Shown in pieces: positions 33,036 to 59,813 of a stretch of DNA of 64,000 bases (position 1 is the stretch's first letter; every line of letters begins with the position of its first letter). The position numbers were made by a program, and so were the translations under genes. The notes under the pieces are model-generated. The model made no database searches. It worked only from the letters and a program-made list of their open reading frames with translations, and had not been told where the DNA came from. The stretch comes from a virus: IMG/VR virus record IMGVR_UViG_3300047409_000266, positions 32,529 to 96,528 of that record. One strand, given 5' to 3'.

Positions 33036-33559
33036 ACGCTGAAACCGAAAGTCGCGCTGCTCTCGATGGCGCTATGGCAGTGCTACCGAAGAAGGGCCGC
33101 CCTACCGACTACTCTAAAGAGTTTGTCCAGACATTTCTGGAGCTTATAGTGTCTGGCGAAACGCTGCTTTCTGTATCTCGGCGCGACGACATGCCGTCAC
33201 ACTGGTCGATATACAACTGGCTCAGGGAGCATCATGAGTTTCGCGAGGGGTACGAATTGGCCTGCAATTGGCGCACGTTCAGTACCGCTGACAGTCTGCG
33301 AGAACTCATCAAGACTACCGACGACGATAGCGTAAAATATAAGTGCATCACCTTTATCCTGGAAAAGGAGATGCCAGAGAAGTACGGGGAAAACCCAGAC
33401 GTCCGATGGAAGCCATCACCGGAGGTTTTAGCCAACGGTGACGATGCTAAGCTTGTGAACGAATCACCGCCGCAGATCATTCATCAAGACCCATTGCAAG
33501 CGCAGTTAGAAGCGTTCGAGAAAGCCGGGCGAGAATACAAAAATGGCAAGGGGTCTTAA
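33032..33559 (+). CDS. terS: terminase small subunit
   Basis: A 175-residue protein just before TerL, overlapping it by 17 bases. An HTH at ~45-75 (ETLLSVSRRDDMPSHWSIYNWL) resembles the DNA-recognition domain of phage small terminases, followed by a helix (ALRELIKTTDDDS-like acidic) and a C-terminal tail. It would recognise the packaging site and regulate TerL. Confidence 0.72.
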   Translation: MNAETESRAALDGAMAVLPKKGRPTDYSKEFVQTFLELIVSGETLLSVSRRDDMPSHWSIYNWLREHHEFREGYELACNWRTFSTADSLRELIKTTDDDSVKYKCITFILEKEMPEKYGENPDVRWKPSPEVLANGDDAKLVNESPPQIIHQDPLQAQLEAFEKAGREYKNGKGS

Positions 33560-38858: not shown

Positions 38859-40235
38859 ATGTGGTTTATGCCGTCTTATGGCCGCCCAGAGAGACTTCGC
38901 GACTTGCTCGACGCTCCGGGAGGTTGGCCATCTCAGGTCAATGTCCTCGTCAATAAAGACGACCCCGCCAGGGGAGAATACGAGAAGTACCTGCGATTCC
39001 CGGACAGACCGTGGATACTCGTTTCAATTCCCGCAGGCTCTCGCTGTGCTGACGCCCACCGCTTCATTACCAGTGAGTTTCCTGGCCAGCCATTCTACGG
39101 CCTTCTCTGCGACGACCATTGGCCGGTAACGCCCGGCTGGTGGAAGGCGATGGAGGAAGCGGCCGGTGATTGCTTCATTGTTGTGCCTAACGGAGAGCCA
39201 AACTTTCCGCTGTTCAGAAATGCCGGTGCTTTTGGTGGTGGTCTCGTCCGCGCGATGGGATCTCTCGTCCCGTGTGCAGTAAAGCACAATTTCGAGGACA
39301 ATCTTTGGGATACGGTCGCCAAGGATTTTGGCATCCTCAAGCCTCTGCCTGACGTCTTTGTTGAGCATAAACACTGGAGACACGGCACAGCCAAGAGAGA
39401 TATGACCTACGAACGCGGCTCCGCCGACTTTGAAAGTGACCGCGCAATCTTCCAGGAATGGATGGTAAGCAACGAGCGCGCGGAGATGAGCAAGCGCGTA
39501 GGCAAGTTTCTCGGCGTAACAGTTAGCACCATCGATCCGAAGAAGGTTAAGCTCTACATCGTGGTTCCGATTGGCGATGAGCATGTAGACGTCGGATATC
39601 ATAAATCGCTCAATAACACGATGGTAGAGCTCGCCCATCGTGGGTTCGATTGCCACATCATCGAAACGACTGGCGGTAGCAACGTAGGCAAGGCTCGCGA
39701 AAAGCTTTTGTGGGATGCTTGGCGTAAAAACCCAACCCACATCATGTTTATTGACGCAGACATGGGCTGGGAGACAGATCAGATTGTGCGTCTGATTACC
39801 GCAGATCACGAGTTCTCTTGCGTCGTCGGCGTTCGTAAGGCTGACGAAACCAAACTGTGCTGTAACTTCTTTCAAGACCCGCAGGAGTTTCACCCACATA
39901 CCAAGTTCCTCAAGATCAAGGACGTTGGCTTTGCCTTTGTGCTTCTCAAGGCATCCGTCATTGAAAAGATGTGCAAGGCATATCCGGCGCTGCGGTACAA
40001 CGCGGGCGACAATGAGGAATACGCACTGTTCATCGAAATGATTGACAAGCGCGAAGGAAAATACGGAGAGCGATTGTCCGAGGATTTCTCATTCTGCCGC
40101 CGTTGGCTCGGCATCGGCGGTGAGATTTGGTGTGATCCGGAAGCCGCTATCATCCACGCCGGCCGCAAGGAATACACCGGCAAGGTCTCCGATGTGTTCG
40201 AGATCAAGAAGCCAGCGGTAAAAGCGGTCGCTTAG
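38859..40235 (+). CDS. tandem glycosyltransferase (two GT-A-like domains)
   Basis: A 458-residue protein with two glycosyltransferase halves. The first (~1-190) begins MPSYGRPERLRDLLDA and has VNVLVNKDD and a GLLCDDHWPVTPGW (DDH) cluster; the second (~225-440) has LYIVVPIGDEHVDVGYHKSL and MFIDADMGWE, an Asp-x-Asp-type metal motif. Both halves read as nucleotide-sugar transferases. Location next to portal suggests modification of virion proteins. Starts at ATG 38859 with AGGGCGG upstream. Confidence 0.75.
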   Translation: MWFMPSYGRPERLRDLLDAPGGWPSQVNVLVNKDDPARGEYEKYLRFPDRPWILVSIPAGSRCADAHRFITSEFPGQPFYGLLCDDHWPVTPGWWKAMEEAAGDCFIVVPNGEPNFPLFRNAGAFGGGLVRAMGSLVPCAVKHNFEDNLWDTVAKDFGILKPLPDVFVEHKHWRHGTAKRDMTYERGSADFESDRAIFQEWMVSNERAEMSKRVGKFLGVTVSTIDPKKVKLYIVVPIGDEHVDVGYHKSLNNTMVELAHRGFDCHIIETTGGSNVGKAREKLLWDAWRKNPTHIMFIDADMGWETDQIVRLITADHEFSCVVGVRKADETKLCCNFFQDPQEFHPHTKFLKIKDVGFAFVLLKASVIEKMCKAYPALRYNAGDNEEYALFIEMIDKREGKYGERLSEDFSFCRRWLGIGGEIWCDPEAAIIHAGRKEYTGKVSDVFEIKKPAVKAVA

Positions 40236-40245
40236 GACATCTCAC

Positions 40246-40368
40246 ATGGCTAGCGTTGTTATGCCGTCGATCATATCGGCGGTCGCATACTATTTCAGGT
40301 GCTCGGTAAGCTATCGAGCGATGGCGATTAGCCTATCGCAGTGGCGAGATCAGAAGCCCAAAGGATAA
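40246..40368 (+). CDS. 40-residue peptide
   Basis: ATG 40246, three bases short of the next gene. Hydrophobic start (SVVMPSIISAVAYYF). No Shine-Dalgarno; supported only by location. Confidence 0.3.
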   Translation: MASVVMPSIISAVAYYFRCSVSYRAMAISLSQWRDQKPKG

Positions 40369-40371
40369 TCA

Positions 40372-40818
40372 ATGCCTCACGATCCTATCGACATCGGCCA
40401 AAAGATCCTGCTCAAGGATACCGCCGGTGGCAATGATCGCGTTGTACTGGAGAAGTACGAGGCGCCGGCAACGCCTGACAGTGGATACGCGCACGATCCA
40501 TATCGTGAGAAGGATCGCGAGGTTGCGGCCACAATGATGAAATGGCTCAACAAGCATTATCCTGGCCACCTGTGGGGCTGCATTGCCGATCTCGCGCAGG
40601 GCATTGTTAAATTCAATATCCCCATATTAATGGGGGTGAATCACTGGTGGGTCGTAAACCTTAAGACGCACGATGTCATCGAAGGCATGCATCTTGGCGC
40701 TGGCGAGATCCTCGAACGCTATAGGCTGGAGCGCGGGCGTTTCAACCTCGATAGCTTTCTCGACGCGCGCGAGAAGCACTCGGCTCTGGTCGTCCCGAAC
40801 CGTAAGGTTCCAAACTAA
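40372..40818 (+). CDS. conserved-type phage protein upstream of portal
   Basis: One hundred and forty-eight residues. The first half is basic/acidic mixed, then WLNKHYPGHLWGCIADLAQGIVKF and a region with MGVNHWWVVNLKTHDVIEG, ending in HSALVVPNR. It overlaps the portal start (ATG 40818) by one base. Possibly head-assembly related. Confidence 0.5.
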   Translation: MPHDPIDIGQKILLKDTAGGNDRVVLEKYEAPATPDSGYAHDPYREKDREVAATMMKWLNKHYPGHLWGCIADLAQGIVKFNIPILMGVNHWWVVNLKTHDVIEGMHLGAGEILERYRLERGRFNLDSFLDAREKHSALVVPNRKVPN

Positions 40819-43358
40819 TGCTGACCGCTAAGCCGCACGGCGAAGATGGTACGGACGGAAACCGGGCACTTCCTGTTACGATCAACTCTGACGGTACCCC
40901 TCCTGGCGAGGACGGATTGACGCGCGGACTGGGCGAGCTTGAAAATAATGCACAGGAACAGGCCGCTGGTTCAAACGGTATCGAGGACGATGACGAGGAA
41001 TCAATCGACTTTCTGCACCTCATTCGCGAGGCGGAGTCTCAGGCGCTGCTATATGTTGCCCAAGTAAACAGGCGGGCATGGTCGCAATCGCTGCGCGCCT
41101 ACCACAACGAGCATTATGTTGGGTCGAAATACACCAGACCAGATTGGCGAGGCCGCTCAAAGCTATTTGTACCAAAGACGCGCGCGGCAGTTCGGAAGGA
41201 CTTAGCGGCGGTTGCTGCATCGCTGTTCAATAGCGTTGACGCTATTAACTGCACGGCTGGAAATGAAGGCGACCAACGTAACCGCGCATCTGCCGCGATT
41301 ATGCAGGAACTCGTCAACTACCGCACTGATCGCGCATCCGGCAAAGCAGCCTTTCCGTGGTTCCAAGTGGCCATGGGGTCTCGTCAGGATTCATTGTTGA
41401 CTGGCATCTGCGCCACAAAGCAGTGTTGGCGGCAGGAGTTTCGCAAGTCTCATACGGAGAACGTAGACAAGGAGCATGAAGAAACTGGCGAAGTGAGGTC
41501 GATGAAACGCGACGTCTACAAACTAGACGTCGATCGGCCGGATATGCTTCTGATCCCGCCTGAGAATATAGTGATCGATGCGGCCGCGGATTGGACAGAT
41601 CCAGCCCAAACCTCAGCATTTCTCATCATCAAATGGCCGATGCAGCTTGAGGAAATAAAGTCAAAACAGAATTCACCGGTCAACCCATGGAATCCGGTTT
41701 CCGAGGAAGTGCTCAAGAATTCGGTTGAGAGTGGCAAATTCGATATGGCGGCGATTCGCCGCGCTCGTGAAATGGGTCTTGATCGCCTCGACGAGACACA
41801 GACTGGAACACACTTCCAGATTATCTGGGTCTATGAGACATTTATGCGTGTCGATGGAGAAGATTACTGCTTCTATTCGGTTGGGGACAAAGCATATCTG
41901 ACAGATCCTTCGTTTGTACGCGATGTTTATCCAGAGCAATTTGGGGAGCGGCCTATCTCGATCGGTTACGGCTCGCTCGAGTCCCACCGCATTTATCCGA
42001 TGTCACCAGTTGAAAGCTGGCAACCGCTGCAGCTTGAGGTGAACGATCTTCGCAATTTGATGCTCGACGCCACCAAGCAGAATGTGATGCCGATCACTAA
42101 AGTGCGACGTGGGCGGCAAATCGATCTCGATCAGGTCAAGCGCCGGTCATCCGGTTCATCGATCATGGTCAACGACAAGGACGATGTGACTTGGGAAAAC
42201 CCGCCGCAGATGGGCACTGCCGGCGTTGAGATGACCCGCGAGCTTAACATCGAAATGGATGATGCCGCAGGCCAGCAGAACTATGGCACTGTCGCGGACC
42301 ACAATTCTCTCGGACGTACGCTCGGAGGTCTCAAGCTTGCCGCAGGCGCCGCCAATGCCGTACAGGAATACGACATTCGTGTATGGATTGAAACATGGGC
42401 GGTCAGAGCACTCTCCCAGATTGTGCGGCTTGAGCAGTATTACGAGAACGACACCATTGTGCTCGGGCTTGTCGGGCAGAAGGCCAAACTGTTCGAGAAG
42501 TACGGCATCAACCAGATTGACGATCAACTGCTTGAGCAGGACGTCACAGTTCGTGTCTCGGCCGGCCTCGGCTCTGGTGATCCGCAACAGCGCCTTGCAA
42601 AATTCCAGTCAGCAGCCTCGATTATAGGTCCGATCGCTCTCCAGTCGCCTCAGTTTCAAAAGGGCGAAATGGAGATCGATATAGAGGCGATGTGGACTGA
42701 GGTGTGGGGCGCGGCTGGCTACAAAGATGGCGGCGCACGATTTATCAAGATGAACCAAGGCCCTCGCCAAGATCCTATGGGCGATCTCAAGCAACAAGAG
42801 ATTATGGCCAAAATTCAAAAGGACAAGCTCACCGGTCAGGCTGCTTTCCTCACTGGAATTGCGAATATCGGTAAGGTGGCGCTCGGTAAGAGAGAACTGG
42901 AGGCCAACGTAGTTGACCAATTTATGGGCCGACAGCTAGACGCGCATACGCTCGGATTTGAGCATGGACATCGCCATAACGATCAGCATCTCTCTGCGGT
43001 GGATCATGGACATCGACATGGTTTGGCGATAGCTGACCATCGCCGGAATCTCGCCAACGACGCGCACGCTCAAGCCATGGCTAAGGCAGAGGCGCAGAAT
43101 CCGGATGGTGGGGGCGCTGAGACGGGCAATGCTGGACGCTCCTCCGCTGCGCCTAGTGCTGCTCCACAGGAACAGCCCTCCGCGTCCTCACCGCCCACAG
43201 CGCAGCCGGAACAGCAACCAACTCAGGCACTTATGCAGCTTATCCAGACTGGTAAGCTGGAATTTACCCGCGATCCTAAGACTGGGCGAATCTCAGGTAT
43301 CCGCATGCCGCAGCAGACTGGCGGAGGCCAATATCCAGCACTGGCAGGTCCGCGATGA
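40818..43358 (+). CDS. phage portal protein
   Basis: An 846-residue portal. RAWSQSLRAYHNEHYVGSKY near 75-95, RSKLFVPKTRAAVRKDLAAV and PENIVIDAAADWTDPA are the conserved portal segments, followed by a long alpha/beta wing and clip region. A His-rich tail (HGHRHNDQHLSAVDHGHRHG, ~715-735) and a Pro/Gln-rich end extend it beyond average length. It forms the dodecameric channel used by TerL. Confidence 0.82.
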   Translation: MLTAKPHGEDGTDGNRALPVTINSDGTPPGEDGLTRGLGELENNAQEQAAGSNGIEDDDEESIDFLHLIREAESQALLYVAQVNRRAWSQSLRAYHNEHYVGSKYTRPDWRGRSKLFVPKTRAAVRKDLAAVAASLFNSVDAINCTAGNEGDQRNRASAAIMQELVNYRTDRASGKAAFPWFQVAMGSRQDSLLTGICATKQCWRQEFRKSHTENVDKEHEETGEVRSMKRDVYKLDVDRPDMLLIPPENIVIDAAADWTDPAQTSAFLIIKWPMQLEEIKSKQNSPVNPWNPVSEEVLKNSVESGKFDMAAIRRAREMGLDRLDETQTGTHFQIIWVYETFMRVDGEDYCFYSVGDKAYLTDPSFVRDVYPEQFGERPISIGYGSLESHRIYPMSPVESWQPLQLEVNDLRNLMLDATKQNVMPITKVRRGRQIDLDQVKRRSSGSSIMVNDKDDVTWENPPQMGTAGVEMTRELNIEMDDAAGQQNYGTVADHNSLGRTLGGLKLAAGAANAVQEYDIRVWIETWAVRALSQIVRLEQYYENDTIVLGLVGQKAKLFEKYGINQIDDQLLEQDVTVRVSAGLGSGDPQQRLAKFQSAASIIGPIALQSPQFQKGEMEIDIEAMWTEVWGAAGYKDGGARFIKMNQGPRQDPMGDLKQQEIMAKIQKDKLTGQAAFLTGIANIGKVALGKRELEANVVDQFMGRQLDAHTLGFEHGHRHNDQHLSAVDHGHRHGLAIADHRRNLANDAHAQAMAKAEAQNPDGGGAETGNAGRSSAAPSAAPQEQPSASSPPTAQPEQQPTQALMQLIQTGKLEFTRDPKTGRISGIRMPQQTGGGQYPALAGPR

Positions 43359-44890
43359 CCGAGGCGCGAGAGGAAACCAGAGACCTAACGATAGGTCAGG
43401 CTCTTGATCTTGGTGTGCAGTTTGCACTCGCTGGAAACCACGAAAGCGCGGTTGGTCTCTTTAGTGGCGTGCTGATGCACGAACCTGAGAACTTCGAAGC
43501 GATCGAGCGTCTGGGCTCATCATTTTTCGAGCTCAAGCGCTATCACGAAGCGCTCTACTGGTTCTGGCGCGGCCGCAAGATCGACCGCAAGCATCCTCTG
43601 GCGCTGACGAATTACGGGCTTTGCGTATCCCAGCTTGGACACTGGGAGGAAGGTGTTGTTGATCTCGAGCGCGCGGCGTTTCAGGCCGAACGCAAGAAAG
43701 ACATATCGATCGAAGCAAAGTCTTTGGTTTACAACAATCTCGGAAATACCTACGAGAAACTGCGCCGATATAAGGATGCGCTAGTTGCCCTCGATAAAAG
43801 CATCAGTATCAACCCGAGCGATCACTTTCCGCATTACAACCGCGGCATTGTGCTTCTGCGCCTCAACAGGCATCGAGAAGGCATCGATGCACTCAATCGT
43901 TCGCTCTCGATAAAGTCGAACGATCCTGACGCCATCTACAATCGTGGCATGGGTCGCCTTCTGCTCGGATACCTCAAGGGGGGATTTGAGGACTACGAAG
44001 CTCGCATGCTTACCTCAGAGAACAAGGTCATTAACCTTGGACTGCCGGCCGACAAGAAGCTCAAGAACATCGATCAGACTGTAGGCGCGCGCATCTTGGT
44101 TCACTGCGAGCAGGGCATCGGCGATGACATTCAATTTTTGCGGTTCTTGCCAGAGTTGCTGAAATGGACCGGGAAAGTGGTGGTTATCTGCCACAGCGCA
44201 ACGCGGCCGTTCTTCGAAGCAGTTCCTGGTGTTCGCGTTATGCCGACTGGTGCCAACCTCAAGGACGAATACGACTACTGGGTTCCATTAATGTCGCTGC
44301 CGCTAATCTTCGGTATCGATCACGAGAGCAAGATACCTGCACCCTGGCCGCCGCCGATCATGGCGGATCGGGTTGAGCAATGGCGGCGCACGATGGATTT
44401 GCCGTCGAGCACCATCAATGTCGGCGTGTGCTGGGCTGGGAACTTTCTCCATAAAAATGACGCGCATCGTTCGATCGCGCTAGAGGTTTTTGCCAAACTA
44501 TTCACGGCGCCCGGCTGCACATTCGTAAGTCTCCAGCAGATGCGGCCGGGAGAGACTGAGACTTTCGCCAAGCTCAAAGAAAAACATACAAATCTACGTG
44601 CCTACTGGTTTGATGATCTGCGCGATACAGCGGCAGCGATGTTCAACCTTGATCGTGTTATCTCGGTCGATACCGCGGTTGGACATCTTGCGGCTACGCT
44701 CGGCGTGCAGACTTCAATCCTTATCCCGGCCTTCGCGACAGATTGGCGCTGGCAATTAGAGCGGACTGATAGTCCTTGGTATCCGCGCGCAACACTATAC
44801 CGCCAGCAAACAATCGGCGATTGGGAAAATGTTATTACGCGCCTGCGCAACGAGCTCACAATATCTGCTGGTCAAAAGCGCGCAGCCTGA
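43355..44890 (+). CDS. TPR-glycosyltransferase, copy 1
   Basis: A 511-residue protein. Residues ~10-230 are tetratricopeptide repeats (VLMHEPENFEAIERLGSSFF, YNNLGNTYEKLRRYKDALVALDKSI, YNRGIVLLRLNRHREGIDALNRSL); residues ~245-490 are a heptosyltransferase/GT9-like domain with HCEQGIGDDIQFLRF and VISVDTAVGHLAATLG. Such fusions transfer sugars onto proteins or lipids. Overlaps portal by four bases and belongs to the same unit. The second copy lies at 52750. Confidence 0.8.
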   Translation: MTEAREETRDLTIGQALDLGVQFALAGNHESAVGLFSGVLMHEPENFEAIERLGSSFFELKRYHEALYWFWRGRKIDRKHPLALTNYGLCVSQLGHWEEGVVDLERAAFQAERKKDISIEAKSLVYNNLGNTYEKLRRYKDALVALDKSISINPSDHFPHYNRGIVLLRLNRHREGIDALNRSLSIKSNDPDAIYNRGMGRLLLGYLKGGFEDYEARMLTSENKVINLGLPADKKLKNIDQTVGARILVHCEQGIGDDIQFLRFLPELLKWTGKVVVICHSATRPFFEAVPGVRVMPTGANLKDEYDYWVPLMSLPLIFGIDHESKIPAPWPPPIMADRVEQWRRTMDLPSSTINVGVCWAGNFLHKNDAHRSIALEVFAKLFTAPGCTFVSLQQMRPGETETFAKLKEKHTNLRAYWFDDLRDTAAAMFNLDRVISVDTAVGHLAATLGVQTSILIPAFATDWRWQLERTDSPWYPRATLYRQQTIGDWENVITRLRNELTISAGQKRAA

Positions 44891-44913
44891 AATCAAATAG
44901 CTAGGACTCCGTT

Positions 44914-45105
44914 ATGCCTGGACCCAAAATGCTGGTGTGGGAAGGCAATGAAGAATGGCGCATGGATGCTGTAGATCAGCGCCGTTTCGGCGGCCCGACA
45001 TTTGCGCCTGTCCCACCAGTACCGCCAGGAAATGCCGAATTGCGTGCCGATCTGAGCATTGAATTGCGTGCTGATGGCGACCCAGAATTGAGAGCCGGTA
45101 TATGA
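44914..45105 (+). CDS. 63-residue hypothetical protein
   Basis: ATG 44914 behind AGGAC. The end has ELRAD-like repeats (AELRADLSIELRADGDPELRAG). Stop overlaps the tailspike start as ATGA. Unknown function, perhaps an adapter. Confidence 0.4.
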   Translation: MPGPKMLVWEGNEEWRMDAVDQRRFGGPTFAPVPPVPPGNAELRADLSIELRADGDPELRAGI

Positions 45106-47801
45106 CGAGCAAAACTACCGGCAATGAGAGCACGCGCTTTAATCTGGATGATACCGAGTGGTATCGCGGCGAGCTTGGCGATGCCACGAACAATTTCAAA
45201 GTTCGCGCCAGTCAGATAGTCAATGTCCCTAAGATCATCACAGGCGGCTCATCGCTGCGCTCTGATGCCAATCGCTGGGGCCAGTACGACATAAACGCCG
45301 CTGAATTCGGCGACATCAACAACAACGCCCGCTCCGTCATTCAGGCCGCGGTCGACTATGGCAAGGCGCAAGGCATTCGACGCCTGCGCATCCCGCGCTC
45401 AGATGCCAACGGCGGGACATGGTTCTTAGATGGGCCAGTGTTCATCGACGATCCGGCCAATCTACGCGCTGGTATTTCGCTGGCCAATCAGAAGCTTGGC
45501 GTCACGGCGGTGCCATCTGTCTTTGACCTCGGCATGGAAGTGATCTGCGATTTCGGCTGCACGTTCTATCCAACGGGAAGCTGGCAGACTGCGCCGATGT
45601 TCTGGATCGGCACCTCGACCGAGAACCGCTTCAGTGGTGCAACGATTATCGGGCCACGCAGCGGTCTTGCGACCGATGTTCGATCGCTAGACCCACGCTG
45701 CACCGGGATTGCAATTGCATCCGGCAATGGCGGCGCTGCCGACACTGTGATCGAGGACTGCTTTATCCGCGACGTCTATTCTGGCGTCACCATGGGGCAG
45801 AACGGCGAAAGCGCGCTGGCCGAAGATAATCGCTTTGTCAATTGCGAGTTTGCAGGCGCCTATGCCATCCGCATTATCAATAGTCAGTCTTTCGCGAACC
45901 TGGTGCAGGGCGGCAACCACACCGGAAAGCTCTATTGCTTCTACAATCAAGGCCAAGATCTCACGATGCTCGACGGCGAGGCTGGGCCCGCCGACCAACA
46001 GAGCGTTCAAATAACCGTCACGGGAGCATCGTCGCTCAATCTATTCACCGACACGCTTCCAGGCGGGGCTAGCTTCACCAACTACACGTTCACGATGAAC
46101 GTCACGCCAAACTCGCTCTATGCGGCGTTGTTGGACGGCACCTACTACTACAATGCAATGGTGATGTTACTGCCGAGCTTCGGCTATGTCCCGTGCGTCC
46201 AGACCGGTTATACGGCCGGCTCCATCACCTACAAGTTCGATCTCGGGTGGCTGTGGTTCCATTTTGGTGAAGAAGTCGCCGCGACAGCAACCGCCATCGC
46301 CACAGAACTTGCAGCCGTCACGACGATCTACGCCGGTCAGCGCGCAACCGTGTGCGCGGGCAAGATAGCTATGGACAACGTCCACATCGAGACCACCCTC
46401 AACTGTGCGCTTTACGAGGGACAGGGCAACGGCGATCGCGCGGTGTTCGAGAATCTGGACATCGTCAATTGGCACCCCGGCGTCACCGACAACGATACGC
46501 CAACCAAAAACATCAATATGCACACTGCTTGGGTCAAGCAGAACAATGGCGACATCATCTTCAAGAACAGCAACCTCATCACGCACCCATCGGATTCGAC
46601 GACCGCGGGCGTGATTATCCAAGGCTACAACGCACCGAACGATCAATCGTTTAATCGCTTTATCGTTCAAAACTGCGTCGGGTTCTCGCGTGCCAACCTG
46701 CGCTACGTCGGCGACGCCACGCCAAATGTAGGTGCGACCTCGCGCGCGCGTGGTCCTGGCTTTGAGAATTCGCTCACGACACAGGCAAACCCAGCGACGA
46801 AAGCATTTGGCTTTGGCGAGATTGATTTCCCGGTGTGGGGCCCTTGCACCGGTGATATGGGCGATCCGTCACTTGCCCGCTTTGCTGGAAATAGGCTCAC
46901 AAAATACTACGGCACGCGCCCGGTTCCTGCCGAGCATGCGCGTCTCACGTCCGCAGACATCACGGCGCTCTCATCTTTAAGCGGCACGCTTCAACAACTG
47001 TGCGGTGGGAGCCTCAATAGCATCGCGCAAATCGGTGGGCAGGGCGCGACCCATGTGATCGACATCGGTGGATCAGGCTTCTCTTGGTACGCCGATCTTA
47101 ATATCAACTGGTCGTATAAGGGCCAGTCGCAGATCGTCAACGTCACGTCGGGCTCCGATCTCATCAAAAATAAGCTCTACAACGGCCTCGAGATCATTCT
47201 CGATAACGGCGGTGGCCCGGTTTCGTACATCATCACCGGCTGCTATCTCGACGACGGATACATTACAGTCTATCGTGCGAGCACGACAAACTCCGTGCTT
47301 GCCGGCGCCAGTGGGACGACATTTACGGGCGCCACTATAAAGCAACGTCGGCCTGTGCTCTCATTCCCGGCACAGACCCGCACCGCGCGCGTCGCGGCAC
47401 AATACGATGTCACCGGCAGCACCACGCCCGCCAATGTTACTGGCCTAGCACTCTATGGCTTTACGGGTGTGGCCTACAAAATCCATGCTGTTTTGTTCAC
47501 GTCCTCCAACACGTCAGGCGGTATCCAGATTCAAATCTCCGGGACCGCGGGCGCGAGCAGCGCACAGACTGAGGGCGTTGTTGTTTCAGGCGGATCAGTC
47601 GTTGGGCAGACACGGGCGACAGCACTTGGCACTCCGTTAGCCGCAATAACCAACGTCAGCACCGCGACTGTCCATATCGACGGCGAAATCACCGTTAGTG
47701 CCACGGGCACGATCACCATTCAGTTTGCGCAGAATGTCTCGAACGGTGCGGCATCGAGCGTGCTCGTGGGCTCCTACGTCGAACTAACCGAAATCCCATA
47801 A
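45102..47801 (+). CDS. beta-helix tailspike/tail fibre
   Basis: An 899-residue protein with a Ser/Asp-rich N-terminal binding segment (SSLRSDANRWGQYDINAAEFGD), a pectate-lyase-like superhelix start (SVIQAAVDYGKAQGIRRLRIP) and long repeats of strand-turn units through ~700 residues, finishing with a domain of Thr/Ser-rich strands. Matches the plan of podoviral/siphoviral tailspikes that bind and often cut host polysaccharide. Catalytic residues cannot be pinpointed from sequence. Confidence 0.72.
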   Translation: MTSKTTGNESTRFNLDDTEWYRGELGDATNNFKVRASQIVNVPKIITGGSSLRSDANRWGQYDINAAEFGDINNNARSVIQAAVDYGKAQGIRRLRIPRSDANGGTWFLDGPVFIDDPANLRAGISLANQKLGVTAVPSVFDLGMEVICDFGCTFYPTGSWQTAPMFWIGTSTENRFSGATIIGPRSGLATDVRSLDPRCTGIAIASGNGGAADTVIEDCFIRDVYSGVTMGQNGESALAEDNRFVNCEFAGAYAIRIINSQSFANLVQGGNHTGKLYCFYNQGQDLTMLDGEAGPADQQSVQITVTGASSLNLFTDTLPGGASFTNYTFTMNVTPNSLYAALLDGTYYYNAMVMLLPSFGYVPCVQTGYTAGSITYKFDLGWLWFHFGEEVAATATAIATELAAVTTIYAGQRATVCAGKIAMDNVHIETTLNCALYEGQGNGDRAVFENLDIVNWHPGVTDNDTPTKNINMHTAWVKQNNGDIIFKNSNLITHPSDSTTAGVIIQGYNAPNDQSFNRFIVQNCVGFSRANLRYVGDATPNVGATSRARGPGFENSLTTQANPATKAFGFGEIDFPVWGPCTGDMGDPSLARFAGNRLTKYYGTRPVPAEHARLTSADITALSSLSGTLQQLCGGSLNSIAQIGGQGATHVIDIGGSGFSWYADLNINWSYKGQSQIVNVTSGSDLIKNKLYNGLEIILDNGGGPVSYIITGCYLDDGYITVYRASTTNSVLAGASGTTFTGATIKQRRPVLSFPAQTRTARVAAQYDVTGSTTPANVTGLALYGFTGVAYKIHAVLFTSSNTSGGIQIQISGTAGASSAQTEGVVVSGGSVVGQTRATALGTPLAAITNVSTATVHIDGEITVSATGTITIQFAQNVSNGAASSVLVGSYVELTEIP

Positions 47802-47812
47802 CAGGCCATGTC

Positions 47813-47989
47813 ATGAAGATCGTCATTGCATCGCTCATCTGGGCGATGGCGCCGTTTTATGTGCAAATCCGGCGATCAAAGACCGCATCCCTGTCTGTTG
47901 GTGCCCCGGACAACGCGCTGCTCGCGGAGGACGGCATCACGCCGCTGGTCGCTGAGGACGGCGTAACCGTTCTCATACAGGAAAGCTGA
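47813..47989 (+). CDS. 58-residue membrane-associated peptide
   Basis: ATG 47813. A hydrophobic start (IVIASLIWAMAPFYV) then a repeated LLAEDGITPLVAEDG element, a motif I recognise in short rhizobial phage proteins. Unknown function. Confidence 0.4.
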   Translation: MKIVIASLIWAMAPFYVQIRRSKTASLSVGAPDNALLAEDGITPLVAEDGVTVLIQES

Positions 47990-47992
47990 TCC

Positions 47993-48448
47993 ATGGGCCT
48001 CAAGCTTTCCGCGTTCACGCCATCTCTCGCCAATCTCGCTGCTGGTAATAAGCTCATCGGCGTTGTCGGCGCAAACGATTTCGGCTTTACCGCCGAGCAG
48101 GTTGCGTACTTCATGCGCAACCCGATCGTCGTCGACAAGGGCAACCAAAGCGCCGGCACGCAGACCTTCGACGTTTCGCAGGGCCCAAAACACAAGTTGC
48201 AACTCAGCGGCAATCTCACGATTGCCTTCAGCAACTGGCCAGCATCCGGAACCTACGGCGAAATTGAAATCCGCCTCATCAACGCCGGTACGCACATCAC
48301 TTGGCCGACGATCAATTGGGCGCTCGGCAATGGCGGGTTTTCGACGACATTCACCGATATGGGCGTCACGTTCCTCAATGCCGGATCGAACTTCGCGCTG
48401 ATCTGGTCCGACGATGGAGGCGCAACGCTCTACGGCAGCGCGATATGA
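47993..48448 (+). CDS. putative virion protein
   Basis: One hundred and fifty-one residues: a start like tail adaptor proteins (LSAFTPSLANLAAGNKLIGV) then a strand-rich receptor-binding-like domain (KLQLSGNLTIAFSNWPASGTYGE). Likely a fibre or its chaperone. Confidence 0.5.
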   Translation: MGLKLSAFTPSLANLAAGNKLIGVVGANDFGFTAEQVAYFMRNPIVVDKGNQSAGTQTFDVSQGPKHKLQLSGNLTIAFSNWPASGTYGEIEIRLINAGTHITWPTINWALGNGGFSTTFTDMGVTFLNAGSNFALIWSDDGGATLYGSAI

Positions 48449-49941
48449 ACAAGAAGTTTTTTCTCAAGCGTAGAGCGACCAACACTGTCCAGCCACCGTC
48501 GTTCGCGACCGCCTTCGGCTTCACCACTCAAGCGTTTTTTGACCATTTCGACTCGATCAGCACGATCGATGTCAACTCAACGGTTGCCCCTGGATTCAAG
48601 TGGTATGTCAATCCGCAACACAAAGGTCCGACGGTTTCTGTTTCTAATTCTATATTGACGCTTGGAAGCGCGACCAGGTCGTCTTTATGGTCAGCGGTCA
48701 ACATTGCAAATGCGTTTGGTGGTGGGAACGGTATTTTCAATCATGGGGCGGTCGGTCAATTATTTTCCGGACTTGACGGTTTTTACATCGAATACAAAGC
48801 CAAATTCAATCCGGCCTTAACGACCGGAAATTCGCAGATCAATCTATGGTCTACGGACTATTTGAATTGGCAATGCAACGCCGTTCCGAACCCACTAGGT
48901 AATTCGAATACGGTTTCCTGGGCGGAAATCGATACTGAAGAAAACGGATTTGGACAGACGCTTCATGGGTTCATTGATCCTGGGTTCAACGACAATATCA
49001 CGAATAGAAGCGTAAATTATACTTCTCCTGGCGGGCCGATCGACTTTTCGCAGTTCCATACATGGGGCTGCTTGATGGCGCCTGGTTCTAAAAATGGCGG
49101 AACTGGACTGTTGCAATTTTTTATTGATCGCGTGCAGAACGGCGCTGATATCACCTGGGCGCCAGGATCACAGACGGGTCTGATAGAGCTCGCGCATCAA
49201 TTTCTCATCATAGAGACGGAGACCAACCAAACGATGCAGATCGATTATGTCGGCCTGTGGAATTCCGGCGCTGGCTGGGACGGGCCGACGACTAATCTGA
49301 CGCATCGCTGGCCGATGAACGATGCGCGCGTCAGCGGCACAACCATCACCGATGTCGTCGGTAGTTTGAATGGCACGGCTGGGTCTGGGATCAGCAGCAC
49401 AATAGGCGCGTTGTGCGATCAAGCCAGACTTGGCGACGGGACGGCGAATAGCCTCATTTCTCTGCCTAGCGGCCCGATCGCTTCATTGACCTCCGCATGG
49501 TCAATCGCCGGTTATGTCAAGCCGAGCAGCATGACCGCATCTGGCGGTGGCAACGCGACGATCTGGAACCTAGACGACGGCACGACGCAAATCCGCCTCG
49601 TCATCGATCACACCGCAACATCGGGCGCTCTCTGCGCGACAAAAAATGGTCCCACGTCGCTGTTCGCGACAGCGGCGGCAGTGTTCTCGCTCAATACCTA
49701 TGACCACTTCATCGTGACCTACAACGGTGCGGGGACATACACGGTCTACCACAGAGGTTTGCCGGTCTCGCTCGGCGGCACTGCCCAGGTGTCGGCACCA
49801 AGCACCGGCAACTGCATCATGGCGCAAAATTCCTCCGGCTTAAATGCGGTTCAGGGTGCTGGTGAGCAATTCGTAACATTCACAAAGGCGCTGACGGCCG
49901 CCGAAGCACTGCAACTTCACAATTCCTACGAACAGAACTGA
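48445..49941 (+). CDS. GH16-like glucanase plus LamG virion protein
   Basis: A 498-residue protein from ATG 48445. Residues ~30-300 form a concanavalin-like jelly roll containing AEIDTEENGFGQTLHGFI at 160-178, which carries the E-x-D-x-x-E catalytic pattern of family-16 glycoside hydrolases (Glu161, Asp163, Glu166). Residues ~310-498 form a second LamG-type lectin domain (HRWPMNDARVSG, NATIWNLDDGTTQIRLVID). It is probably a depolymerase that cleaves a host beta-glucan or other polysaccharide. Substrate unknown. Confidence 0.65.
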   Translation: MNKKFFLKRRATNTVQPPSFATAFGFTTQAFFDHFDSISTIDVNSTVAPGFKWYVNPQHKGPTVSVSNSILTLGSATRSSLWSAVNIANAFGGGNGIFNHGAVGQLFSGLDGFYIEYKAKFNPALTTGNSQINLWSTDYLNWQCNAVPNPLGNSNTVSWAEIDTEENGFGQTLHGFIDPGFNDNITNRSVNYTSPGGPIDFSQFHTWGCLMAPGSKNGGTGLLQFFIDRVQNGADITWAPGSQTGLIELAHQFLIIETETNQTMQIDYVGLWNSGAGWDGPTTNLTHRWPMNDARVSGTTITDVVGSLNGTAGSGISSTIGALCDQARLGDGTANSLISLPSGPIASLTSAWSIAGYVKPSSMTASGGGNATIWNLDDGTTQIRLVIDHTATSGALCATKNGPTSLFATAAAVFSLNTYDHFIVTYNGAGTYTVYHRGLPVSLGGTAQVSAPSTGNCIMAQNSSGLNAVQGAGEQFVTFTKALTAAEALQLHNSYEQN

Positions 49942-49943
49942 CC

Positions 49944-50201
49944 ATGCCAAAATATGAAGTGACTGACAGCCTCGGCAACGTGCACGCCAAGGAGTGCGCC
50001 ACACCATTGAGCCATTGCGTGGTGGCGCGCATGCCCGGCATCGACCCGGTCGCCAATTGGTGCGGCTCGCTCAAGAACGCCAAGCACGTCATCGCCTCGA
50101 TCGCCAAGGCGGGCGGGAACACGGAAGTGCACGGCGTCGTCGCGTTGCCGGAACCGGAGCTGCAGCAGGCACCGCAAGACGATAGCGCCGGGGCGATTTA
50201 A
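49944..50201 (+). CDS. small hypothetical protein
   Basis: Eighty-five residues; polar helical sequence with Cys-His-Cys near ECATPLSHC and a Gln-rich end. Coupled to its neighbours by short gaps. Confidence 0.45.
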   Translation: MPKYEVTDSLGNVHAKECATPLSHCVVARMPGIDPVANWCGSLKNAKHVIASIAKAGGNTEVHGVVALPEPELQQAPQDDSAGAI

Positions 50202-50206
50202 CCCAC

Positions 50207-51049
50207 ATGGCCATCATTCCCGTTGTCGTCGGTTTCCAGCATATCCCGGTCGGCGGCACATGGGTGGCCCCTGGCACTGGCTATTCCAACGAAGCGAGCC
50301 AGTTTTTTAACCGCATCACCGATCCCGGCACGACGAGGAAGAGCCTTTACGCTGCAATGATCGACGGCCTTGTTGCCGATGGTGTGTGGTCTCTGCTCGA
50401 TGCACTTTACATCTTCGCCGCCGATATTTCCGCTAACGGCTTGGCCAATCTCAAATCGTCATCGTTTGGGTTGACTTCGAACGGTGCGATGACGTTCACA
50501 GCGAACGTAGGATACCAGTCGAACAATGTCGGCACATCCAATTTAGATACCGGTTTCGTGCCATCGACGGCGGGCGGACAGTTTGCGCTCAACAGTGCGA
50601 GTCTTGGTGTTTATTCGCTGACCGCCAGCACCACGAGTGGTGCGACAAATGACGCGATTGGTTGCGTAGATACAGGTGCAGCACACCGTTCGTTCTTTAA
50701 TCCCAACAATGGTGGCAACACATTCGAGGGAATTAACCAGGATAGCGGCCAGGGCATCGGGTCAAATACACAGCATCAAGGCATGTGGGTGCTGACGAGA
50801 ACGACTTCCGCCCTGACGACCTGTTACAAAAACGGCACCTCAATCGGAACAGATCCTCTCAATACCGCGTCATCGGCATTGCCGAACCGGTCGATCATGA
50901 TCTTTGCGCGCAATAACACCACGCCAGATCCTTACGCCGATCAAATGTCTGCGGGCTTTATCGGCGGCGGCCTCAACGCGACACAGGCGAGCAATCTCTC
51001 GTCGCGCATTAACACCTACATGACTTCGCTTGGCATCAACGTCTATTAA
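50207..51049 (+). CDS. duplicated tail protein, copy 1
   Basis: A 280-residue Thr/Ser/Gly-rich protein with helical IDGLVADGVWSLLDALYI near 45-65 and then a beta domain starting SSSFGLTSNGAMTFTAN. Clear paralogue of the 272-residue protein at 54968, which has GGLVADGIWSLLDALWI and SSSFSLTANGAMTFTAN at the same positions. Probably tail fibre or fibre-adaptor copies from duplication. Confidence 0.6.
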   Translation: MAIIPVVVGFQHIPVGGTWVAPGTGYSNEASQFFNRITDPGTTRKSLYAAMIDGLVADGVWSLLDALYIFAADISANGLANLKSSSFGLTSNGAMTFTANVGYQSNNVGTSNLDTGFVPSTAGGQFALNSASLGVYSLTASTTSGATNDAIGCVDTGAAHRSFFNPNNGGNTFEGINQDSGQGIGSNTQHQGMWVLTRTTSALTTCYKNGTSIGTDPLNTASSALPNRSIMIFARNNTTPDPYADQMSAGFIGGGLNATQASNLSSRINTYMTSLGINVY

Positions 51050-51126
51050 TTCTCTCGGCTAGTCGGTTGAGAGATGGCCTAACCGCCCGCTGGCCTGGGC
51101 ATTTTGTGTCATAATGGAGATTATCA

Positions 51127-51618
51127 ATGGCACGCGAGTTCTCTATCTCGGCCGGCGGCATCACAGTCGCCGGTGCTACCACCTTAGTCGCGGTAAATCC
51201 GGCAGCGGCTGCGAACTTCAATATTGAATTTCTGCGCTACTGGATTGGTCAATCCGCCAACGCTACTTCGGCACAACAGCGCGTTGAACTGGCCAAGAAG
51301 GCATCGGTGTTTCCGACGTTGACAGCGGCAACCCCGGTCAAGCTGAAGGCAGCCGACCCCAACGCTTCTGTTATCACTGGCGGTACTGCTGGAGCCATCG
51401 GAACTGCAGGCACGAACGCATCGGCCGAAGGCGCCGGCACGCAGACTGTTGAGTGGGATGATGCCTTCAACGTACTCAACGGCTGGCTGCATGTTCCGAC
51501 CCCTCCGGAAACCAAAATCTATCCGGCTGGCCTCGGGAATTCTCTGGAGCTTTATTTCCCGGTCGCACCGAGTACACTAACCAATTGGGCCTTCGGGTTA
51601 ATCTTTAGGGAAGTCTAA
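51127..51618 (+). CDS. putative virion protein
   Basis: One hundred and sixty-three residues; starts EFSISAGGITVAGATTLVAVN and continues with Ala/Thr strands, a helix (QQRVELAKKASVF) and a C-terminal LYFPVAPSTLTNWAF. Likely a small fibre or decoration protein. Confidence 0.5.
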   Translation: MAREFSISAGGITVAGATTLVAVNPAAAANFNIEFLRYWIGQSANATSAQQRVELAKKASVFPTLTAATPVKLKAADPNASVITGGTAGAIGTAGTNASAEGAGTQTVEWDDAFNVLNGWLHVPTPPETKIYPAGLGNSLELYFPVAPSTLTNWAFGLIFREV

Positions 51619-51637
51619 TCGACCTAAAGCACAGAAT

Positions 51638-51673
51638 GGCGGGTACTGGCCAACTTGTGGATCAGTGCCCGCC
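51638..51673 (+). terminator. hairpin, terminator candidate
   Basis: GGCGGGTACTG (51638-51648) and CAGTGCCCGCC (51663-51673) pair over 11 positions with one G-U; followed by GTTATGTTTTCG rather than a clean T run, so function is uncertain. A second weaker hairpin lies at about 51090-51110. Confidence 0.45.
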
Positions 51674-51713
51674 GTTATGTTTTCGTTAACTATGGTGGAG
51701 TTAGGGCATCACC

Positions 51714-52142
51714 ATGTTTGGCATTCAAACCATCCCAACCTTGTTGCCGCAGAGCATTCGTAACCGGCTGAAATATCTGTTCAAGCACGAGAGCTTGCGA
51801 GAAAAGCTTCCGTCGCATCTTACCGGTCGACCACACTACAACCCAGCACAATGCGGGTTCATGGCTCCGGATGAAGATTTTGTCCCGCAGAGTGAACCTG
51901 GAACGGTGTGCCCGCCAGCGTTGGTAATCCGCGACAAAGAAAATGCACTGTGGACTCTTGGTTTTGACCAGGGTTCGCATTGGACTACTGGCGAATTTGA
52001 ATTTGACGTTGTGCGTAACATGCGCAAGACTGGCGCGCGCGCCTGCCGCATCGAGAAGTTATCGAATGGGTACGTCCGCATTTTTGGTTCCTGCGATGGC
52101 TCTCGGCAATGGAGGACGTGGAACGGGCGAGAGTTTGTTTGA
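51714..52142 (+). CDS. hypothetical protein
   Basis: One hundred and forty-two residues; starts with an amphipathic segment (IRNRLKYLFKHESLREKL), then strands with aromatic residues and two cysteines. Unknown; just ahead of the methyltransferase it overlaps. Confidence 0.5.
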   Translation: MFGIQTIPTLLPQSIRNRLKYLFKHESLREKLPSHLTGRPHYNPAQCGFMAPDEDFVPQSEPGTVCPPALVIRDKENALWTLGFDQGSHWTTGEFEFDVVRNMRKTGARACRIEKLSNGYVRIFGSCDGSRQWRTWNGREFV

Positions 52143-52762
52143 GCGCTGCACCCGACCTTGTCGGAATTTATACCGATAAGCGAGCGTTCTTGGAGCTGTT
52201 TGAAGAATACTGCGCACCGCGTCTTAATCATCGCGCCGAGACATTCCGCACCGTGTTCAAACTCTTGAACGGACATCCGGCCAGAATCTTTGAGACTGGC
52301 TGCCTGCGCGTACCCGGAAATTGGGAGGGCGATGGGCAATCGACCTTCATGTTCGATCGCTATGTCGAGTCCTACGGCGGCAAGCTTATGTCCATCGACA
52401 TCTCGCCGGAAGCCGTCAAAGCCGCGCAAGAGGTGACATGGAACGCCGAGGTTAATTGCGGCGATAGCGTTGCTTTCCTTAATGCACATTGCCACCGCTA
52501 CTCCGACCCGATCCAGCTTCTCTACCTCGATAGCTGGGATCTCGACGCCAATAACCCGCTGATCGCGGCGCACCACCACATGAACGAGCTTTGTGCGGCT
52601 ATGCCGGCGCTCGACTTCGGATCGATCGTCTTTGTGGATGACACCTGGCGGCACGCCAATGGGAAACCTTTCGGTAAGGGCATGTTGATAGCCGACTTTA
52701 TGGACAAGATTGGTGCCGAACAGATTGCTGAGGGAGAAAACCAATTCGCATGGCGAATGTAG
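52109..52762 (+). CDS. SAM-dependent methyltransferase
   Basis: About 217 residues (ATG 52109; a TTG at 52139 inside the upstream overlap is an alternative). IFETGCLRVPGNWEGDGQST and KLMSIDISPEAVKAAQ form the class I SAM site, followed by ALDFGSIVFVDDTW. Member of the family that methylates small molecules, sugars or proteins; position between glycosyltransferase genes suggests sugar or protein modification of virions. Confidence 0.68.
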   Translation: MEDVERARVCLSAAPDLVGIYTDKRAFLELFEEYCAPRLNHRAETFRTVFKLLNGHPARIFETGCLRVPGNWEGDGQSTFMFDRYVESYGGKLMSIDISPEAVKAAQEVTWNAEVNCGDSVAFLNAHCHRYSDPIQLLYLDSWDLDANNPLIAAHHHMNELCAAMPALDFGSIVFVDDTWRHANGKPFGKGMLIADFMDKIGAEQIAEGENQFAWRM

Positions 52763-54207
52763 TGGGCCAACATCCAGAAAAACCCATGGAAATAAATGTT
52801 GCCGTCGCGCTCAAATACAGCGGCGGCCTTATGCGCGCTGGTCAATATGAGGAAGCCGAGCAGCTACTGCGAGCAGCAGTAATGGCGGAGCCAAACGATT
52901 CCAATACGATCCACGCTCTGGCGATGGCTCTGCTCGAGCAAGAAACGCGCGAAAAAAGTGAGGAAGCAGTAGCCCTATTGCAGCATGTTGGGGCGATGCT
53001 CCGTGATGAAATGATTGCGCTCTCCTGCAACATGGGTAAGGCATTGGGTGAGCTTGGGCGCACGAAAGAGGCAATCGCAAGCTTCCAGGGCGTACTGAGG
53101 TCATATCCGAACCATACTGGGGCCCGCTACGGGCGTGGCCTCATGCGCATGCAAGAAGCACATTTCAAAGAGGCTGTTGAAGATTTCGATCAGGTGATTG
53201 CGTCCGAACCGGACAATGGCAAGGCCCTGTTCGCACGGGGCTTTGCTAATCTGGTCCTTGGCAATTATCGGCCCGGTTTCCGCGACTACGAATTCCGCCG
53301 GCACGATCTTATCGACCAGATCGACAAGCCAGAGTGGAAGAGCGATGCCCGTTTATTGCTCGGCAAGACGATCCTAGTGCACGGCGAGCAGGGCCAAGGT
53401 GATAACATCCAGTTCCTGCGCTACATTACTTGGTTCCACAACATCGGGGCTAGGGTTCTTCTTGTCCTCGACCCAAGCATGGCGTCTCTCGCCTCCGATC
53501 TTGGCGTGACGGTCTTGACCACAGATCGCTCGACATGGCCACACTTCGATTGCTGGATCAGAATGATGAGCTTGGCCTATGCCTTCGCCACGACCATGGA
53601 AACCGTGCCGCCGCCATTGCCACTCGGCATCACCGAGAAAGAGACCAACGAATTCTGGGGAACGGTGCCGCTAACGGATGACGTGCGGTATCATCGCGAA
53701 ATGTATGGGCGTAATTCCAACGCGCGGCGCACGCCCAAGGCCATGAAGATCGGCTTGTGCTGGTCTGGTTCTCCGCACAGCCGATATGATTCCTACCGCT
53801 CGATACCGCTCAAATACCTGGAGCCGCTGATCCGGGACAGCAACGCGCGGTTCTACAGTCTGCAGCTTGGATTGCGCGACAGTGACAAGGAGACGTTCTC
53901 GAAGCTCCCGATTACCGATCTATCGCCCAAGCTCAAAAGCTTCCGCGATACAGCGCTCGCGATGGCGGGTCTTGATTTGGTAATTACCGTCGATACGTCT
54001 GTCGCGCATTTGGCTGGCACCGTTGGGGTTCCGACCTGGGTGATGCTCAACTGTTTCCGCACATATTGGGTTTGGATACAAGGGCTTGATTATTCCCCAT
54101 GGTATCCGAGCACAAGAGTCTTTCAGCAAAAAACGAACGGCGATTGGCCGGAACTCATTGGACGTGTGCAGCGCGAACTTCTCGAATTGGCAAAAGTCGC
54201 CGCCTAA
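52750..54207 (+). CDS. TPR-glycosyltransferase, copy 2
   Basis: A 485-residue paralogue of the 43355 product. TPR-like repeats at ~15-170 (RAGQYEEAEQLLRAAVMAEPND, ELGRTKEAIASFQGVLR, AHFKEAVEDFDQVIASEPD) and a GT9-like domain containing VHGEQGQGDNIQFLRY and LVITVDTSVAHLAGTVG. Likely adds sugar to a virion protein; two non-identical copies imply different acceptors. Confidence 0.78.
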   Translation: MANVVGQHPEKPMEINVAVALKYSGGLMRAGQYEEAEQLLRAAVMAEPNDSNTIHALAMALLEQETREKSEEAVALLQHVGAMLRDEMIALSCNMGKALGELGRTKEAIASFQGVLRSYPNHTGARYGRGLMRMQEAHFKEAVEDFDQVIASEPDNGKALFARGFANLVLGNYRPGFRDYEFRRHDLIDQIDKPEWKSDARLLLGKTILVHGEQGQGDNIQFLRYITWFHNIGARVLLVLDPSMASLASDLGVTVLTTDRSTWPHFDCWIRMMSLAYAFATTMETVPPPLPLGITEKETNEFWGTVPLTDDVRYHREMYGRNSNARRTPKAMKIGLCWSGSPHSRYDSYRSIPLKYLEPLIRDSNARFYSLQLGLRDSDKETFSKLPITDLSPKLKSFRDTALAMAGLDLVITVDTSVAHLAGTVGVPTWVMLNCFRTYWVWIQGLDYSPWYPSTRVFQQKTNGDWPELIGRVQRELLELAKVAA

Positions 54208-54967: not shown

Positions 54968-55786
54968 ATGCTTTTTCCTGTTATTGGTCGCAATGCGTAC
55001 GCACCACAGTATGCACCACAAGCGCTTGCTTTTTTTGCGCGACTGGCGACCCAACCGAGTGACGCACGAAAGAAAGCCTACGCTGATTTGATCGGTGGTC
55101 TCGTCGCTGACGGCATCTGGTCCCTGCTAGATGCACTCTGGATACTGGCGGCAGCGGACTCGGCCACGGCGCTCAAGAACCTCGTTAGTTCGTCGTTCTC
55201 ATTGACCGCAAACGGCGCGATGACGTTCACGGCCAACGCCGGCTATCAGTCGGACAACGTCGCGACCTCGTTCCTTGCGACCGGCTACACACCATCGACG
55301 GCGGGCGGACAGCTCACGCAAAACAGTGGCTCGTTCGGTGCCTATTCGCTCACAACGGATAGCTCGGCCGGTTTTTTCGCCCCGATCGGCTGCATCGACG
55401 CCACCAACGGACTATTCATCTTCCCGCAATTTAGTGCGGGGAGCCTGGGCGGTCGCGTCAATGCAAATGCGGGCGGGACGAACTCCCCAAATCCCATCCC
55501 GAATAGTCAGATGAAGGGGTTCTATACGTTTTCCCGAACGAGTTCGGGGGTCGTGAACGTATACAAGAACGGCTCGACGCTCGGTTCAATCGCGCAGACC
55601 TCATCAGGTCTCCCAACCGTGGCGATGACGCTGTTCTCGCGCAACAACAACGGAACACAAGATGATCCATGGCCAGATCAGTGCTCGGCGTTCTATATCG
55701 GTGGCGGATTAAACGCGGCGCAAGTGCTCCAACTCTCCACCCGCATCAACACTTACATGACAGTACTCGGCATCAACGTCTACTAA
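54968..55786 (+). CDS. duplicated tail protein, copy 2
   Basis: A 272-residue paralogue of the 50207 product, sharing LVADG(V/I)WSLLDALx(I), SSSFxLTxNGAMTFTANxGYQS and PSTAGGQ, with different endings. Starts ATG 54968. May form part of a second fibre. Confidence 0.6.
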   Translation: MLFPVIGRNAYAPQYAPQALAFFARLATQPSDARKKAYADLIGGLVADGIWSLLDALWILAAADSATALKNLVSSSFSLTANGAMTFTANAGYQSDNVATSFLATGYTPSTAGGQLTQNSGSFGAYSLTTDSSAGFFAPIGCIDATNGLFIFPQFSAGSLGGRVNANAGGTNSPNPIPNSQMKGFYTFSRTSSGVVNVYKNGSTLGSIAQTSSGLPTVAMTLFSRNNNGTQDDPWPDQCSAFYIGGGLNAAQVLQLSTRINTYMTVLGINVY

Positions 55787-59776: not shown

Positions 59777-59813
59777 CGAGAAGGAGAGGCTTAGTTCCGA
59801 AAGGAGTTCTGCA

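Follow-up and report, generated by a model that had tools for sequence, protein, structure and literature searches.

Four sugar enzymes encoded between positions 38859 and 54207 of a 64,000-nucleotide stretch of a tailed-phage genome (IMG/VR record IMGVR_UViG_3300047409_000266) suggest that this phage adds methylated sugars to its own virions, because genes for such enzymes are found next to capsid or flagellum genes in other genomes. The stretch, here called the window, comprises bases 32529–96528 of the 96,528-base record, and positions below are those of the window; the remaining part of the record was analysed as L002 and L003. The enzymes are a protein with two glycosyltransferase (GT) domains of the GT-A fold, two proteins in which tetratricopeptide repeats (TPR) are joined to a GT9-like domain, and a class I methyltransferase. 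That together they serve late-gene, cytoplasmic O-glycosylation of virion proteins is, on balance, probable. An earlier note on this DNA had proposed sugars, possibly methylated, on virion proteins; as regards the enzymes and their placement this stood, whereas acceptor and glycan stay putative and the suggested purpose, evading or binding host surfaces, is conjecture. Comparative data (capsid-side neighbourhoods, GT-methyltransferase fusions and flagellin-side homologues) favour modification of a surface protein, and methylation of the sugars is plausible. The enzyme genes, with the portal gene that one of them overlaps, are:

38859–40235, + strand: double GT-A protein, 458 residues (N-terminal GT-A domain at about 1–218, C-terminal GT-A domain at about 222–458)
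40818–43358, + strand: SU10-type portal (PF23899/SU10_portal, 94.2 bits, 9e-27; phrog_1216)
43355–44890, + strand: TPR-GT9 protein no. 1, 511 residues; its gene shares its first 4 bases with the end of the portal gene
52109–52762, + strand: class I methyltransferase, Methyltransf_24-like; overlaps both flanking genes
52750–54207, + strand: TPR-GT9 protein no. 2, 485 residues; the closest relative found, in L182–L184, is 42% identical

The portal gene that had been claimed for this region is thus confirmed by its SU10_portal match. The methyltransferase gene starts inside the gene at 51714, and the second TPR-GT9 gene starts inside that of the methyltransferase; these overlaps, together with that between the portal and the first TPR-GT9 gene, point to expression alongside the late genes.

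The double GT-A protein is specified by one open frame. It has no match in Pfam, and any link to a named CAZy family such as GT27 is one of fold; in PHROGs, phrog_1574 matches residues 228–439 (8e-23) and a ‘glycosyltransferase’ family residues 80–190 (5.6e-11). A joint alignment set most relatives of the N-terminal half on the C-terminal half, and the halves were therefore modelled apart with AlphaFold2, using IMG/VR relatives (pLDDT, the predicted local distance difference test, 89.6 for the N-half and 91.4 for the C-half). Each separate model matches GT-A enzymes in the PDB, which upholds the earlier description of the protein. The top Z for the N-half is with the polypeptide N-acetylgalactosamine-transferases (ppGalNAc-transferase; Z 15.6, 205 residues, 3.2 Å), and Foldseek ranked AvpGT and PcManGT first. 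For the C-half it is with STIV A197 (Z 18.9, 162 residues, 2.1 Å), followed by LH3 (17.3), Mnn9 (15.9), Mimivirus R699 (15.2) and COLGALT1 (15.0). Among 24 N-half sequences D86 is invariant and D85 is present in at least 90%, a D85 D86 pair to which H170 and H172 can be added; the C-half has D78 and D80 (DxD) invariant in 35 sequences, and its ED and a late His are conserved. With GT-A folds modelled and metal-type and late His positions conserved, both halves look catalytically intact. An hhalign comparison of the two halves, a weak test, detected no relation between them.

On a 41.8-kb IMG/VR contig (L102), homologues of the N-half (55% identity) and the C-half (22%) are adjacent separate genes, upstream of what by eye look like terminase and portal genes. 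A frame was called for C-half relatives at 73 of 80 loci, and none of these is longer than 337 residues; the longer N-half relatives, 7 of 64 at 554–629 residues, have Methyltransf_24 following the GT-A domain. A GT-A/GT-A fusion was therefore not seen elsewhere in these sets of relatives, where a 426-codon protein of L018 was read only at its C-half-type start.

The claim of two TPR-GT9 fusions likewise held: in both proteins the N-terminal TPR passes the Pfam cut-off and the GT9 signature in the C-terminal domain is invariant, an architecture of the FlmG type. Glyco_transf_9 itself scores below its cut-off (17.6 and 18.5 bits for the first and second protein vs 22), and a relative, L218, passes it with 23.8 bits. 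The signature, which we take to be GD ... D-x4-H with positions read from the alignment, corresponds to G30, D31, D228 and H233, all invariant in 19 sequences. Full-length searches against PDB profiles gave TPR proteins, and the GT domain was therefore cut out; it then aligned weakly with WaaC, over the second motif (E 0.12). The two proteins are about 31% identical, and two copies may mean two acceptors.

Pairing of glycosyltransferases with methyltransferases recurs among the relatives. The window methyltransferase, reported earlier as such, is class I: it matches Methyltransf_24 (PF13578) over positions 7–105 of 105 at 23.6 bits, just below the cut-off of 26.3, and is 41.5% identical to a protein of phage S-EIVl. 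Seven of the 64 N-half relatives (L106, L119, L131, L151, L169, L172 and L181) have the GT-A domain fused to Methyltransf_24, in each case above the Pfam cut-off; phiAsp2 Pas34, four genes after a putative head protein, is among them. The N-half is also matched by PHROGs family phrog_2675, which bears the label DNA methyltransferase; since the long N-half relatives, Pas34 included, are GT-A plus Methyltransf_24 proteins, that label is probably wrong. In L218 TPR-GT9 is fused to an FkbM methyltransferase domain, and the window methyltransferase family adjoins TPR-GT9 in L191 and is one gene off in L240. In MW202512 (L005) the major capsid gene is followed by two small genes and then by TPR-GT9, an endonuclease and an FkbM methyltransferase. 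In BUCT-ZZ01 TPR-GT9 is accompanied by a weak, sub-cut-off Methyltransf_11 match, with fibre-type genes adjoining.

Direct neighbours of the closest TPR-GT9 relatives supply acceptor candidates. The L182–L184 contigs, probably one phage type since all three give the same match scores, carry a 42% identical TPR-GT9 between homologues of two window proteins, with one small gene separating it from the first of these, and L182 has a partial homologue of a third, three genes upstream of TPR-GT9. As TPR-GT9 travels with these homologues, the window counterparts are candidate acceptors:

26269–28050, + strand: 593-residue structural-looking protein, outside 38859–54207; 42% homologue in L182–L184
51127–51618, + strand: 163-residue protein; 45% homologue adjoins TPR-GT9 in L182/L184
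51714–52142, + strand: 142-residue protein; partial homologue in L182, 40% over 67 residues

Single-protein scans of IMG/VR with the portal or either TPR-GT9 protein returned no relative; alignment queries for the GT domains did find relatives there. For the GT9 domain the best 80 of 551 stretches were used, and neighbours were considered at 40 phage loci, with 112 of 135 listed neighbour proteins scanned. One neighbour protein family is shared by 30 of the 40 loci (hhalign, a weak test here, found no relation between it and ten window proteins), a sialyltransferase-like gene is near TPR-GT9 in 20 (phrog_30607/phrog_4603, judged from the sequence and the size of the cluster), and in 12 a T4-type major head gene lies within two genes. 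One T4-like group, L185–L249, has a recurrent arrangement: the sialyltransferase-like gene is followed by that of a shared structural-looking protein, by TPR-GT9 in opposite orientation, and by either a homing endonuclease or the major head gene. Tallies of the 25 commonest families beside C-half relatives hold four single-stranded DNA (ssDNA)-binding proteins, with one or two entries each for portal, tail tube, tail and virion structural families; a control with genes far from the GT-A genes (91 proteins) gave mainly replication families, with 2 major-head matches among those listed. In MW202691 and MW202476 the C-half relative is inside runs of head and tail genes. Homologues of the L002:4500 protein (phrog_3287, virion structural protein) are present in 16 fetched C-half loci, and in six of these they begin about 65 bases past the GT match.

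Bacterial relatives add a flagellar side. The double GT-A protein was used to scan 397 genomes of the alphaproteobacterial order Hyphomicrobiales, to which a Bradyrhizobium genome belongs, giving 36 places in 30 genomes, every one on the C-half. A Flagellin_N match is within 10 kb of the C-half homologue at 14 of the 36 places (12 of 30 genomes, counted with no random-placement control); ten of the 12, as we read them, are above the Flagellin_N cut-off, and G008 and G122 have sub-cut-off matches only, at least partly FlgL-like by eye. FlaF and FlbT adjoin one homologue. Phage_capsid (HK97-type) is within 10 kb at three places in two genomes. Prophage-like stretches with the GT-A gene near an HK97-type capsid gene are L354 (G320:C5) and L355 (G087:C13), with two copies in G320. 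Taken together, the flagellin-side and capsid-side homologues point to one GT-A family present in both flagellar neighbourhoods and prophage head modules, of which a search of titles and abstracts found no description. Relatives of TPR-GT9 are common in bacteria, with identity of at most 40% among the 80 kept.

By analogy with FlmG and A197, the TPR-GT9 proteins would start a glycan, the double GT-A protein would extend it and the methyltransferase would cap it. The TPR arms of both TPR-GT9 proteins would bind newly made virion protein, their GT9-like domains would attach the initial sugar, drawn from a nucleotide-sugar of the host; one or two more would come from the double GT-A protein, and the class I methyltransferase would O-methylate the product. 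We infer the order of steps, the acceptor, the donor sugars, the methylation target and the benefit to the phage. A broader proposal is that tailed phages captured a flagellin-type cytoplasmic O-glycosylation kit, made up of an initiating transferase guided by TPR, a fused GT-A pair that lengthens the chain and a methyl cap, with the virion glycan resembling that of host flagella and one stock of enzymes serving both bacterial filaments and phage capsids; we hold this to be doubtful.

Parts of such a pathway have precedents. In Caulobacter, flagellin modification requires FlmG, which combines TPR with a GT-B domain and whose TPR part was assayed for flagellin binding (PMC7591256). It shares with the phage proteins an N-terminal TPR part and a C-terminal transferase, of GT-B type in FlmG, and acts cytoplasmically on a surface-filament protein; unlike them it is bacterial and a flagellin enzyme, the comparison being one of architecture rather than of GT-domain sequence. 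STIV A197, proposed to glycosylate the major coat protein of its virus (PMC10551542; PDB 2c0n), is viral and has the GT-A fold closest to the C-half, though it is a single-domain protein of an archaeal virus with 14% identity. Glycosyltransferases of mycobacteriophages Che8, Corndog and Myrna modify capsid and tail proteins (PMC12363180); as here they are phage-encoded, but Che8 has three separate glycosyltransferase genes that, in the stretch read, are not near head genes. In phiAsp2 (Pas33/Pas34) and relatives an N-half-type GT-A likewise accompanies a methyltransferase near a head gene; there, in contrast, the GT-A is fused to the methyltransferase with no second GT-A, and TPR-GT9 is absent from the stretch read. 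MW202512 resembles the window in having TPR-GT9 with a methyltransferase, shortly past the major capsid gene, and differs in that its TPR-GT9 is 27.6% identical, its methyltransferase is annotated FkbM, not Methyltransf_24, and no double GT-A is annotated. In Rhodococcus phages the presence of a glycosyltransferase and a methyltransferase was already read as hinting at glycosylated virions (PMC13313380). The idea of virion glycosylation is thus already known, and what looks new here is the fused GT-A pair and the FlmG-like TPR enzymes beside an SU10-type portal. In titles and abstracts, with subscription papers mostly outside the scope, no description of a phage head-module TPR-GT9 or of a fused GT-A pair was found.

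Several observations weigh against a virion target. Glycan, donor and acceptor are all putative, and the fold similarity of the GT-A halves says nothing on the type of acceptor. The 12 major head proteins near TPR-GT9 are 84–99% identical to each other and therefore represent a single lineage rather than 12 separate events. C-half relatives have neighbours of several kinds (46 direct neighbours, 26 cluster representatives), few of which match head or tail families, and the location of this family is not uniform, since its members occur also beside DNA-replication genes; the Cr30 relative is amid replication genes. In Streptomyces and Arthrobacter phages the N-half relative is grouped with another GT and a nucleotidyltransferase and, as far as the stretches were read, lies apart from genes annotated as structural. 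In Hyphomicrobiales 19 of the 36 places have neither a Flagellin_N nor a Phage_capsid match nearby, one of the 19 adjoining a Phage_capsid_4 protein. No relative with both TPR-GT9 and a double GT-A protein was found; L065 and L080 hold TPR-GT9 plus a C-half relative, amid DNA genes. In addition, hhalign of the profiles against the single sequences of Che8 gp108–110, a weak test, gave no significant match.

The enzymes could instead alter host surface glycans (O-chain or capsule) and so block adsorption by other phages, which we regard as unlikely. Pelagimyophage glycosyltransferases were read by their authors as modifying the host surface (PMC7029224), and the methyltransferase relative in S-EIVl and P-TIM68 is off annotated structural genes or within sugar-biosynthesis clusters. 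However, the record has no match to a GtrA-type flippase (controls matched), the four enzymes have no membrane segment (top 19-residue Kyte-Doolittle mean 1.51), and their genes belong to the head module, where one of them overlaps that of the portal. That last position also argues against a host filament protein, flagellin or pilin, being glycosylated so as to change the phage receptor. The activity of the TPR-GT-B protein FlmG on flagellin (PMC7591256) and the closeness of C-half homologues to flagellin genes, seen in 12 of the 30 genomes, would fit such a role; the same GT-A being near a phage capsid gene, not flagellin, in two genomes would not, and we consider a host filament target distinctly improbable.

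Least probable of all, and very unlikely indeed, is glycosylation of modified DNA bases. Phage glycosyltransferases that modify DNA exist (cited in PMC12619734) and some C-half relatives are beside ssDNA-binding and SbcD genes, but PF00303, the thymidylate-synthase/hydroxymethylase family, has no match in the record, which is possibly incomplete, and matched 9 of 14 control genomes; a Tet_JBP search matched none of its controls and so carries no weight either way.

Few tailed phages have so far been shown to have glycosylated virions (PMC12363180). If glycosylation of virion proteins by this set is correct, it reaches an SU10-like phage through enzymes of different families, the occurrence of phrog_1574 (filed under unknown function) near both capsids and flagellins is explained, and there are defined acceptor candidates for how TPR-guided glycosyltransferases select proteins.

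The other genes of the region and of the surrounding head module are:

33543–35372: terminase (phrog_38)
40372–40818, + strand: 148-residue open reading frame (ORF) with no family found, outside the claimed enzyme set; 1-base overlap with the portal start
45102–47801, + strand: 899-residue protein, spike- or fibre-like by appearance only and a possible acceptor; no phage family
48301–49941, + strand: ORF with a LamG/ConA-like C-terminal domain (domain match); its true start is probably later than the first TTG
50207–51049, + strand: 280-residue protein with partial matches to two phage families of unknown function; a look-alike is at 54968–55786
58475: scaffold-like gene, by appearance
59757–63138: major head gene, split, by eye
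L002, within the first 32.5 kb of the record: the recognisable tail genes and an SU10-type adaptor

Tail genes had also been described as interleaved with the enzymes. This was not borne out by homology, as matches to named tail families are absent from the searched non-enzyme ORFs from portal to scaffold: those at 45102, 48301, 50207, 51714 and 55801 (PHROGs) and at 51127 and 54968 (Pfam only), the ORFs at 47993, 49944 and 54226 being outside these searches. By appearance, the genes between portal and scaffold are tail- or decoration-like. A tRNA-Arg prediction within the portal gene is probably false. A portal homologue was found in none of the 397 Hyphomicrobiales genomes and none of seven related records, in a search with no positive control.

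The major head gene seems to be split by group I introns, with RF00028 matches at 60043–61232 (E 1.8e-5), 61258–61487 (2.6e-7) and 61887–62167 (1.7e-9), all below the gathering score; within it are a LAGLIDADG-type gene on the minus strand (60256–61185) and an HNH gene (62182–62826). L182 encodes a 1073-residue protein that in parts weakly resembles two proline-rich repeat proteins of the window, at 28055–29029 and 55801–58023. A single open frame runs from L002:9965 to L003:4460; it has 4832 codons, and an LPD38 domain lies in the final third. The record also carries an outer membrane protein (OMP) beta-barrel gene (L003:9119–9940; OMP_b-brl, 2e-9) with 31–36% identical relatives in three Rhizobiales genomes; a Rhizobiales host is our guess.

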